Source of the DNA: an uncultured Methanobrevibacter sp.
Lineage (GTDB): Archaea; Methanobacteriota; Methanobacteria; Methanobacteriales; Methanobacteriaceae
Assembly (NCBI GenBank): GCA_900318035.1
Contig: ONJC01000030.1
Span: 1 to 44,875, forward strand
Direction of reading: 5' to 3'
DNA length: 44,875 nt
Under the pieces are notes generated by a model. It ran no database searches and had not been told where the DNA came from. It worked only from the letters and a program-made list of their open reading frames with translations. Positions within the stretch are counted from its first letter, which is position 1, and each line of letters begins with the position of its first letter. Made by a program: the position numbers and the translations under genes. Positions 27,411 through 32,336 of this stretch are shown here, piece by piece.

Positions 27411-27443
27411 TAGTTATAAATATTACTCATCAAATGCTCTACC
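27411..27443 (+). promoter_or_regulatory. Promoter of the 111-residue gene with motif TCATCAAATGCTCT
   Basis: GTTATAAATATTAC (27413-27426) is the TATA region; TCATCAAATGCTCT occupies 27427-27440, between the TATA box and the predicted start near 27443. The same 14-nt motif occurs at 31786-31799 in front of the SocA-like gene, where a group II intron separates it from its own TATA box. Confidence 0.55.
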
Positions 27444-27497
27444 TCTTTTCATTTAAATAAGAACTACCCAAACTATAATCAAAAAGGATTTGGTAGT

Positions 27498-27833
27498 ATG
27501 ATAATTAATTGGAAAGAAGAAATAACAAAAGTCGACCCGGACATAAAATTCAGAGCACAGGGCGGATGGTTAAAAACTGTTGAAGAACTTGATAAAAGCG
27601 TTAGAAACGGATTTTCCCTTGTCGGGGACTTTGTTCAGGCAGGCGACTTTGAAGCCGAGTACAGCGACGGAGTATACCTTGACTGCAACAAGGAAGGAAC
27701 TGCGAAAAAACCCAAGCAGGACTACAGGCTATTCAGATTCCGCAACGGCAAGGTAAGACTGCTTGATATGGTGATTGATGCCGAACAGGGATGGGCAGTT
27801 GACTTATGGGATGCCGTTGAAGACGAATTTTAA
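27498..27833 (+). CDS. Conserved-looking hypothetical acidic protein
   Basis: The 111-residue soluble protein is rich in Asp, Glu and aromatic residues (NWKEEITKVDPDIKF, SDGVYLDCNKEG, WAVDLWDAVEDEF). No domain is recognised. Codon use is G/C rich at third positions, so the gene is real. It is preceded by a good TATA box and the 14-nt motif shared with the gene at 31863, suggesting common control. The ATG follows GGATTTGGTAGT. Function unknown. Confidence 0.7.
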   Translation: MIINWKEEITKVDPDIKFRAQGGWLKTVEELDKSVRNGFSLVGDFVQAGDFEAEYSDGVYLDCNKEGTAKKPKQDYRLFRFRNGKVRLLDMVIDAEQGWAVDLWDAVEDEF

Positions 27834-29040: not shown

Positions 29041-29481
<441 letters not shown>

Positions 29482-29522
29482 GTCGAATAAGAAGAGACAA
29501 TTACTTGTCTCCCCTCTTCTAA

Positions 29523-29556
29523 GAACCGTACGTGTCCCTTTTAAGACATACGGCTC
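29523..29556 (-). ncRNA. Group II intron domain V
   Basis: The catalytic 34-nt hairpin reads GAGCCGTATG at its 5' side and CGTACGGTTC at its 3' side, with an inner stem TGTCTT/GGGACA and an AAAA tetraloop. The AGC catalytic triad lies at positions 2-4. This location and size identify the intron core. Confidence 0.85.
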
Positions 29557-29608
29557 AAGCATACTTATAAGAATTCATGCATACTTATAGAAATGTTTAT
29601 AAAGTTGT

Positions 29609-31138
29609 TTAGCCATATAGATATTCAAATGAGGTTTTTCCATATCTTTTAAGGAAATATTCATCGTATGAGGAGTCATATGGGGTTGCTTTATACTTAA
29701 TGCATCTGGAATATTTTATTCTTGTCCAATACATTTTTTCCACTTGGCAATTTGTGATTGGGTCTGTAAAAATCCATTTATCATTGTATATTGAGTGTAA
29801 ATGAGTTTTAAAATGTTTTTTGACCATCCATTTGATTGGTTTATTGGGATACCATCGTTTAATTTGCCTGAGTAGAAGTTCATAAATGTAATTATCCATT
29901 TTACTAAATATCCTTTTGTTAGATGCCATTTTCCAGTAGTTACTAGTCCCAATAATTAAATTATTAAGTTTTATAATACTTTCTTCAATGTTCCAAGGAT
30001 AACATCTTCGGATTATGTATTTAGCTTTTCTCTTGAATGATTTAATACTATCTTTAGATGCCTTTATTAATACTTTATCTCGATCATATCCATTGTAACA
30101 TCGAATATTAAATCCTAGGAAGTCAAAACCATCATTAATATGTGTAATTTTGGTTTTGTCCGGAGCTAAAGTTAAACCTCTTTCATCAAGGTAATCCTCT
30201 AAAAGATTATAAACATCTTCAGCATCCTCTAAGGTCTTACATAAAACTATAAAGTCATCGGCATATCTAATAACTGCATATTTGGACTTATTTAAATAGG
30301 TATTGTTATTTCCATACTTTATTTCCTTATACTCAATGTTTAGTGCTTCTTCCATTCCGTGTAGTGCAATATTTGCCAGTAATGGGGATATGATGCCTCC
30401 TTGGGGAGTACCGGTTCTAGTATTGTAGAAAACATTGTTTTCTAAATATCCGGCTTCTAACCATCTTTTGATTAGATTTTTAAGTGGAAAATTACCTAAT
30501 TTATCCAGTATGTGTTGGTGACTTAAAGTATCAAAACACGATTTAAAATCACCTTCAAAAATATAAGGTCGATTTAATCCTCTTGTAAAACTATGAATCT
30601 TTGCTATAGCATCGCTTACTCCACGAGCAGGTCTAAAACCATAACTAGTTGATTCAAATTTAGCTTCCCACATAGGTTCCAATGCTAATTTGCAGATTTC
30701 TTGATAAATCCTATCAATAATTGTTGGAATACCTAATGGTCGCTTTTTACCATTTTTCTTTGGAATATAAATTCTCTGAACAGGTTTGGGTTTATGTAAA
30801 CTAATTTTATAATCTTTCAGTTTATAAAATAATGCCATTCGTTCATAATCGTGTTTGAAGACTTTATTATCAATACCACTAGTTTTTCTACCTTTATTCT
30901 TCTTTGTTACAAGATTTATTGCAAATAACAAACTCCTTTTATCATTAACTAATAATCTACATAGTTTATTAACTTTTCTATAATTGCCTTCCTTCTCTGC
31001 TTTAAATATCCGTTTTTGTATCTTAAATATGTCATACTCAATGGATTTCCAGTTAATATCCTTCCATTCCTTATCAAGTATCTCTTCGTCTGATTTTACA
31101 GACTGTAATATATTTAAATTATTATATTCAGTTTTCAT
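29609..31138 (-). CDS. ltrA: Group II intron reverse transcriptase / maturase
   Basis: The roughly 509-residue protein mobilises and splices the surrounding intron. Landmarks: RT0/RT1 region (VQRIYIPKKNGKKRPLGIPTI), GFRPARG, the FEGDFKSCFDTL acidic site, GTPQGGIISPLLANI, the catalytic YADDFIVL, and DKTKITHINDGFDFLGFNI, followed by a maturase X domain to the end. The C terminus stops after YDEYFLKRYGK and lacks the Cys-pair HNH endonuclease, so it is an En-minus type. The start is taken at MKTEYNN (31138); in-frame ATGs at 31156 and 31216 are possible, and no Shine-Dalgarno distinguishes them. The RT looks intact. Confidence 0.9.
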   Translation of the reverse strand: MKTEYNNLNILQSVKSDEEILDKEWKDINWKSIEYDIFKIQKRIFKAEKEGNYRKVNKLCRLLVNDKRSLLFAINLVTKKNKGRKTSGIDNKVFKHDYERMALFYKLKDYKISLHKPKPVQRIYIPKKNGKKRPLGIPTIIDRIYQEICKLALEPMWEAKFESTSYGFRPARGVSDAIAKIHSFTRGLNRPYIFEGDFKSCFDTLSHQHILDKLGNFPLKNLIKRWLEAGYLENNVFYNTRTGTPQGGIISPLLANIALHGMEEALNIEYKEIKYGNNNTYLNKSKYAVIRYADDFIVLCKTLEDAEDVYNLLEDYLDERGLTLAPDKTKITHINDGFDFLGFNIRCYNGYDRDKVLIKASKDSIKSFKRKAKYIIRRCYPWNIEESIIKLNNLIIGTSNYWKMASNKRIFSKMDNYIYELLLRQIKRWYPNKPIKWMVKKHFKTHLHSIYNDKWIFTDPITNCQVEKMYWTRIKYSRCIKYKATPYDSSYDEYFLKRYGKTSFEYLYG

Positions 31139-31785
31139 TGCCAAAATCACACTCATAAAAAATTTTTTTTTTACACATTTAATGATATCTGCCGTTTTAA
31201 ATAAAGCAAGATACACCTGCTAAAAGTCTGCTTATCCCACACAGTTATTATATTTGTCAGTTTTCTGCTACCTTTCGATTAAGTGGGCATTTGCTTTCTT
31301 TAGCATCCTCTACCCAGAAAAGAACATCAGATTTCCTCACGGTCACCCTACCATATTATGAATATGGACAGTTCTGGGCTTACCGAGTTAACCAATTGTT
31401 AGAAACGACTAGTTTAGGTTCTCCAACTACGCCAGTTAGTATCTACGGGTTGTAACCTATATACATACTGAAAAACTTATGTATGACCTTTAACTAACAA
31501 TACAATGGCTCTTCGAAACTTCCTACCCATTGCTGAGCATAATGACGCTTTTACTCAGGAGTTCACTTTCGTTAACCATGCCAGTCTTTCTCTCGCCCTC
31601 TTAGTATTGGAAGTTATACTAAGATTAGGCTTTAACCTATCATGCAACCCACATCATTGTTGCCAATGATGCAGTTTCAAGGGAGAATAACACGCACAAC
31701 AGTGTTATCAGTCATTTAGGACTGCACTAACATATGTCATTCATTTGAGGACATATAACAAATTATTGGTTCTATCTCGTCGCAC

Positions 31786-31862
31786 TCATCAAATGCTCTC
31801 CCACACCACTTAAATTAAACCGTCAACATAACCAATACTACCCAACCATCACAGGCCACAAA
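31786..31862 (+). promoter_or_regulatory. Promoter fragment of the SocA-like gene, cut off from its TATA box
   Basis: TCATCAAATGCTCT (31786-31799) is identical to the motif at 27427-27440. At 27413 it directly follows a TATA region, but here the intron lies in between; the matching TATA half is at 29470-29481. The remaining 60 nt leads to the ATG at 31863 with AGG 9 nt upstream. Confidence 0.55.
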
Positions 31863-32336
31863 ATGAAAATCAATGAAGAAAAATATATCAACCTCATCAT
31901 GTACATACTGTTCAGATCCATGAACAAACCCAATCTGGGAAAGACAGTGCTGTGTACAATCATGTACTTCATTGACTTTAATTTTTACGAGCTTTACGGA
32001 ACATATTTAACCAAAGAAACATACATCAAATCCAAACGGGGCATAAAGCCGAAGCATTTCAGAAGGATAACCGAAAATCTCATAGCCAAAAAGCAGCTGT
32101 TCATGAGAAAGGAACCCTACTACAACAGGACAATTCACAGATACTATCCGACAGTCATACCCCTTCCAAAATTCGATTCAGATGAACTCGTCGTAATCAA
32201 TTCATGCATTGAAGCGCTGAGGGACAACAACGCACATACAATAACGCAATACGCATGGAAAGACCAGCCACTGATGAAAGCAGGACTGGGGGAAGAAATA
32301 GATTACAATGACGTATTCCTGAGAGCCAACAAATAG
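31863..32336 (+). CDS. SocA/Panacea-like (DUF4065-type) protein
   Basis: The 157-residue protein resembles the Panacea/SocA antitoxin fold: an N-terminal helical part (INLIMYILFRSM), then MYFIDFNFYELYGTYLTKETYI and KRGIKPKHFRRITENLIAK, which parallels the family pattern of 'LYFADFxYYExYGxSITGExY' and a following 'GPVP' segment. Family members are antitoxins or chaperone-adaptor-like proteins; no toxin gene is adjacent. Its promoter appears to be disrupted by the group II intron upstream. Codon use is G/C rich, like the gene at 27498. Assignment is moderately sure; function is unknown. Confidence 0.65.
   Translation: MKINEEKYINLIMYILFRSMNKPNLGKTVLCTIMYFIDFNFYELYGTYLTKETYIKSKRGIKPKHFRRITENLIAKKQLFMRKEPYYNRTIHRYYPTVIPLPKFDSDELVVINSCIEALRDNNAHTITQYAWKDQPLMKAGLGEEIDYNDVFLRANK

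Follow-up and report, generated by a model that had tools for sequence, protein, structure and literature searches.

A Methanobrevibacter group II intron lineage that likely retrohomes to a predicted promoter box of repair genes

The window analyzed here, a stretch of 44,875 nucleotides from an uncultured Methanobrevibacter sp. (contig ONJC01000030.1), carries a group II intron of a lineage also found in five other Methanobrevibacter genomes. We consider it likely that this lineage retrohomes to a predicted promoter box of repair genes. In the window, the intron lies within a copy of this box in front of a SocA-like gene.

The intron and its empty site

The features of the interrupted locus are as follows.

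29477..29481, plus strand: AATAG, the box's upstream half, displaced by 2.3 kb; contiguous with the core in the empty site L028
29482..31785, minus strand: group II intron of 2304 nt, 5' end at 31785; ends read directly and fixed by the empty site of a relative
29482..29558, minus strand: intron domains V-VI (Rfam RF00029, 53.2 bits against a gathering threshold of 40)
29609..31216, minus strand: intron-encoded reverse transcriptase/maturase of 535 aa (TIGR04416, 339 bits against a cut-off of 300)
31786..31799, plus strand: remaining part of the box, including the core TCAAATGCTCT (31789-31799); its minus strand is IBS2/IBS1
31809..31816, plus strand: CTTAAATT, predicted as the TATA box, which starts 9 nt past the core, a spacing common to other sites
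31863..32336, plus strand: gene for a SocA-like (Panacea domain) protein, downstream of the interrupted box (PF13274 at 27.0 bits, cut-off 25.7)

The intron begins with GTGCGAC at 31785 and ends with TTCGAC at 29482, and direct reading confirmed the termini given in the original prediction (GTGCG and CGAC). Its open reading frame matches RVT_1, RVT_N, and GIIM. Domain V/VI, a reverse transcriptase/maturase with YADD and a maturase domain, a GUGYG-type 5' end (GTGCG), and EBS/IBS pairing are all present, as expected of a mobile group II intron. Relaxing the Rfam threshold yielded nothing further except weak domain V families. The nearest solved chain to the intron protein is 6me0_C (302 bits), which we take to be TeI4h, while GsI-IIC scores 118 bits.

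The intron separates two divergent genes, LSm (followed by L37e) on the minus strand and the SocA-like gene on the plus strand, and it is antisense to the latter, as was predicted. Upstream of LSm, a segment of approximately 100 bp (29320-29420) is nearly invariant in most of the orthologous loci compared. This conservation exceeds the needs of a plain promoter and is perhaps that of a leader or a small RNA.

Genome G026 is intron-free at this locus (L028), and its SocA-like protein is 99% identical to that of the window. The joined flanks of the window align to L028 without interruption at the junction (223 of 235 columns identical), and CTATTTAAAATAG followed by TCATCAAATGCTCT in the window corresponds there to CTATTTAAATTAG followed by TCTTCAAATGCTCT in L028. 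This gapless join indicates that the insertion was precise and without target duplication. The original prediction had stated that the flanks join as TATTTAAAATAG and TCATCAAATGCTCT and had proposed a search for an empty site in relatives; L028 joins exactly these flanks.

The box and the genes behind it

The window contains a second copy of the box, which is uninterrupted.

27427..27440, plus strand: second box copy, with its upstream half TATTAC at 27421-27426 and TTTAAATA at 27452-27459
27498..27833, plus strand: gene behind the second box copy, with no Pfam or NCBIfam match

The box is 18 bp long and consists of TTAC/G followed by T-NN-TCAAATGCTCT, with the insertion point between these two parts. 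Aligned copies have TTAC or ATAC (at times with a final G), T, two variable bases, and the core, usually with a TATA-like sequence 9 nt later. The uninterrupted copy is exact, as claimed, and is preceded by TTATAAATATTAC. Within the window alone, two copies would be unremarkable since 0.81 matches are expected at 2 mismatches, but both are exact. In the 2.29-Mb genome, TCATCAAATGCTCT has 19 exact copies (25 with at most one mismatch) and its reversed-pattern control has none, while the core has 32 exact copies and its control one. These counts exclude a chance match as the source of the repeated motif.

Among the matches listed, the core occurs 2-39 times per genome in 67 Methanobrevibacter genomes (control, 0-2) and 2-23 times in 19 genomes of genus g23. 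It is less enriched in genera g19, g21, g24, and g25 and rare in other genera, such as g26 (0-4 in 20 genomes), again among the matches listed. In G009, G035, and G069, most of the boxes among the matches listed share another spacer, ACTGTTCAAATGCTC, as if the box and its regulator drift together.

A TATA hexamer lies 7-13 nt past the core at 20 of 30 sites in the window's own genome, against 7% of random positions and 10% of nearby upstream positions; the other ten have none at the expected distance. In G109, which belongs to another genus, 14 of 23 box sites have TATA at the usual spacing and 9 do not. A stretch of equal width upstream of the box contains a TATA hexamer at 5 of 30 sites in the own genome and at 5 of 23 in G109. 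We fetched 29 SocA-like orthologues from the genus, and the DNA of 28 extended far enough upstream. A core with no more than one mismatch precedes 27 of these 28 at 44-71 nt from the start codon, and TATA (broader pattern) was found in 25; an intron was looked for upstream of the same 28 and was found at none. A preferred TATA spacing and a place before start codons are the properties of an archaeal promoter upstream element, and they suggest that the box is a promoter element to which a regulator binds.

Genes were read at 30 of the 32 box loci in the own genome, and a replication or repair gene comes next in 11. These encode UvrA, RPA, TopoVI-B, a Hel308-like helicase, the RFC small subunit, Hef, Hjc, a UvrD-like helicase, and NurA; two further products, a helicase of DinG/YoaA type and one resembling MutS, are weak matches. 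Several loci were truncated at 1500 nt, and thus some scores are under full-length cut-offs. The other genes behind the box encode NrdD, TnpB (two loci), YdjM, PfkB, and TldD, and the remaining loci are contig ends or have genes without an assignment. An RRXRR-HNH gene, whose product is presumably IscB-like, lies approximately 440 nt past one box. The mobile nucleases TnpB and RRXRR-HNH behind the box (L167, L169, and L181) may have joined a host repair regulon.

Among the 23 boxes of G109 are those before RPA, PolD DP2, NurA, Hjc, Hef, and a Cdc6-type ATPase; the start codons of RPA and DP2 are 200-290 nt from the box. Behind another G109 box (L205) is a gene whose product resembles, by eye, that of 27498..27833. 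The element thus precedes repair genes beyond a single genus. This distribution points to a candidate archaeal DNA-repair regulon in two genera, which presumably answers DNA damage. We found no description of a Methanobrevibacter repair regulon, of the letters of the box, or of such an archaeal repair motif among the open-licence papers listed.

Introns at the box and elsewhere

We searched 67 genomes of the genus for the intron 5' DNA and scored the best candidates, up to seven per genome. This yielded 22 intron 5' ends including that of the window, seven of which abut the box core at the identical nucleotide. They occur in five of the 67 genomes (the window's own, G036, G019, G076 with two, and G082 with two), and a TATA-like sequence follows the core, by eye, in each. 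A junction-pattern search recovered the identical seven, and its reversed control recovered none. Nine of the 16 matches listed in the junction scan of the genus had 2 mismatches and lacked GTGCGAC after the box, and were excluded from the count. An order-wide scan at 3 mismatches gave mostly empty boxes and chance sites among the matches listed. Eight hits fell in named genomes, six of them Methanobrevibacter and two bacterial MAGs.

The genes behind the box-bound introns encode the SocA-like protein in the window, an HxlR-type regulator in G036, UvrA and a UvrD-like protein in G076, and TnpB twice in G082; the G019 site was too short for gene reading. Empty boxes orthologous to some of these sites are present in the window's own genome, namely L179 for the G082:C37 insertion, and L161 and L186 for the G076 uvrA and uvrD-like insertions. 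In the closest subfamily (at least 97% identity), all four intact 5' ends among the best candidates, up to seven per genome, are at the box (window, G036, and two in G082). The fifth member of this subfamily is a damaged copy at the box in a sixth genome, G006, with a protein that is 99% identical. In this copy, the first 30 nt are missing along with part of the box, whereas GCTCT-N9-TTTAAATA is retained. At G036, the copy measures 1031 nt and lacks most of the open reading frame. Most copies in other genomes are truncated by contig ends. Other introns are nested inside the G019 copy; two genomes (L149 and L150) carry introns nested at an identical point of domain I, which constitute twintrons.

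When six genomes were searched with the intron sequence alone as the query, the 3' junction could be read in 11 cases (four in G082, three in G076, and one each in G000, G006, G036, and G019), indicating at least 11 copies. In 10 of the 11, the 3' exon, followed in the direction of the gene, ends in TAC or TAG, against a background of 2.3%; G006 was included in this count after an 8-nt repeat was set aside. The exception, at G076:C17, has no match to the upstream half of the box. A requirement for C as the first base of the 3' exon was dropped because the 11 copies have C in six cases (G006 without its 8-nt repeat) and G in five. The 3' exons of G036, G019, G082:C20, and G082:C18 are mutually alike by eye, and these four copies may be located within a single repeated element. 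Intron ends that are 97-100% identical in several genomes suggest recent spread.

The predicted guides of the window intron are as follows.

31535..31540, minus strand: EBS2 guide ATGCTC (intron 246-251), pairing 6/6 with GAGCAT in the box
31469..31474, minus strand: EBS1 guide TTTTCA (intron 312-317), pairing 5/6 with TGATGA here; position determined by eye in the alignment

The guides of the window pair with their own site at 11 of 12 positions, one short of perfect, and with the G036 site at 12 of 12, where EBS1 pairs 6/6 with TGAAAA of the sister copy. Among the uninterrupted boxes of the window's own genome, those that pair best carry TTTTCA; one precedes a TnpB gene (L167), one TldD (L174), and two are at contig ends (L179 and L189). 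EBS2 and EBS1 covary with the adjoining exon across the seven introns tabulated. This set was obtained from nine aligned introns by removing G018 and G009, the T-rich exons of which pair widely, and G006, the exon of which is damaged, and by adding G036. Pairing with the own site is 11-12 of 12 in these introns, against a mean of 5.6 and a maximum of 9 at the sites of other groups (38 comparisons), although own-site pairing is partly expected because complementarity was sought in the alignment used to place the guides. Based on the recurrence at one nucleotide and on this pairing, we infer that the insertions at the box arose by retrohoming.

Pairing by itself is not sufficient to explain the choice of site. 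With G-U pairs included, 29 of 89,724 13-mers in the window pair with the guides at 11 or 12 of 12 positions. Since many 13-mers pair equally well, the choice must be narrowed by protein recognition or by survivorship and tolerance. The abundance of such 13-mers might even suggest that many weakly paired insertions occurred and that only those just upstream of a core and TATA were tolerated. We regard this as improbable because tolerance alone would scatter insertions over intergenic DNA, whereas seven of them are on one nucleotide of one box, and because the guides match the G036 box completely.

The remaining 15 of the 22 5' ends are away from the box (two in G071, one each in G077, G023, G024, and G014, four in G061, and five in G068), as are those of the introns of G078, G018, and G009. 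The introns of G071, G024, and G014 are at single other sites and are less similar to the window intron. The G014 copy is 85% identical to the first 202 nt of the window intron, level with the box-bound G019 copy. The four introns of G061 lie in a repeated hairpin-like sequence, GGTTGGGGTATTCTTGCAA..., and a similar sequence holds the intron at five places in G068 (L136-L144). By eye, this repeat is similar to a sequence that precedes a TnpB gene (L169). The related introns of G077 and G023 are, also by eye, in a TnpB-like coding end.

These last locations raise the question of whether the box belongs to a mobile element, such as an IS200/605 end, and not a host promoter element, with the introns homing into IS ends. 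Two boxes of the own genome precede TnpB and another precedes the RRXRR-HNH gene, both G082 copies whose 5' exon is known precede TnpB genes, and the similarity of the four 3' exons is consistent with such an origin. However, repair genes have the box in front of them as well, as do nearly all testable SocA-like orthologues (27 of 28), in the latter at 44-71 nt from the start codon, and no transposase gene is next to the window, uvrA, or uvrD-like insertions. We consider an IS end to be quite unlikely and retain homing to a promoter box.

Consequences of the insertion and comparison with known systems

The original prediction held that the intron had parted TATTTAAAATAG, taken as a TATA box, from the start region downstream of it, and that the SocA-like gene was thereby silenced or placed under intron control. 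The flanks and the empty site are as it described, a promoter-type element common to the 27427 site is indeed interrupted, and TATTTAAA(T) just upstream is conserved in the closest relatives. However, the labels of the two pieces were wrong: the TATA box comes after the motif and not before it, as indicated by hexamers after the core at 20 of 30 sites versus 5 of 30 for the upstream place. In addition, the empty-site relative has a TATA, TTTAAATT, past the core, the counterpart of which is intact in the window. With TATA 7-13 nt past the core at most sites, the core, the predicted TATA box, and the gene are still adjoining at 31786-31862. Separation of TATA from the transcription start is, in our opinion, very improbable. 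Terminator targeting of the class C (IIC) type was rejected because no terminator-like site is present at 31780-31870 and the seven 5' exons have no common hairpin, with fold energies of 0 to -4.5.

Under homing to the promoter box, EBS1 and EBS2 would direct the lineage to the box through their complementarity to it. Only the upstream half of the box is cut off by the intron; the insertion would spare the core, the TATA box, and the gene, and this place may be tolerated because the core and TATA survive. Since the intron starts with GT, its end restores only AC of the TTAC consensus in the replaced upstream half. Loss of control of the SocA-like gene, or a change in it, is possible after the insertion.

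We tentatively extend this view. The retroelement lineage may have adopted the operator of an undescribed archaeal repair regulon, spreading via uvrA, uvrD-like, socA-like, and tnpB boxes and detaching each gene so entered from the shared repair control. If so, intron movement would amount to a rewiring of the host response to DNA damage. Moreover, the box exposes a candidate Methanobrevibacter repair regulon and a direct route to its regulator, and the uvrA and uvrD-like insertions represent ready-made natural promoter variants. Some eukaryotic retrotransposons settle upstream of promoters, and homing at the box would be a parallel. A host promoter box as a dispersed homing site would add a further kind. 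We found neither a Methanobrevibacter intron nor introns at transcription-factor sites among the open-licence papers listed.

The group IIB introns TeI3/TeI4 of Thermosynechococcus elongatus form families defined by EBS, which retrohome in waves to matching sites and are retargeted through guide changes; one family is in an IS200-type element, and some introns are nested in others (PMC2882425). The window intron is similar in that its protein is nearest to 6me0_C (302 bits). In contrast, the targets of TeI3/TeI4 are intergenic sequences and IS, and none in the available portion of that source is a repeated host promoter element (PMC2882425).

Bacterial class C introns target terminators and attC sites (PMC4424553, PMC8919778). 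In those introns, as here, a short regulatory DNA feature found genome-wide next to genes serves as the target and limits harm (PMC4424553, PMC8919778). Unlike the terminator, which is behind genes, the box of the window precedes genes, and the intron protein is nearer to 6me0_C (302 bits) than to GsI-IIC (118 bits).

The UV-inducible promoter hexamer of Sulfolobus, A(N)TTTC, is located at -44 to -39 (PMC5817253). It is a non-palindromic element just upstream of the BRE/TATA of DNA-damage genes in an archaeon (PMC5817253), and the box resembles it in this respect, before presumed DNA-damage genes. In contrast to the hexamer, the Methanobrevibacter box has a different sequence, is longer, and precedes the genes of many repair enzymes.
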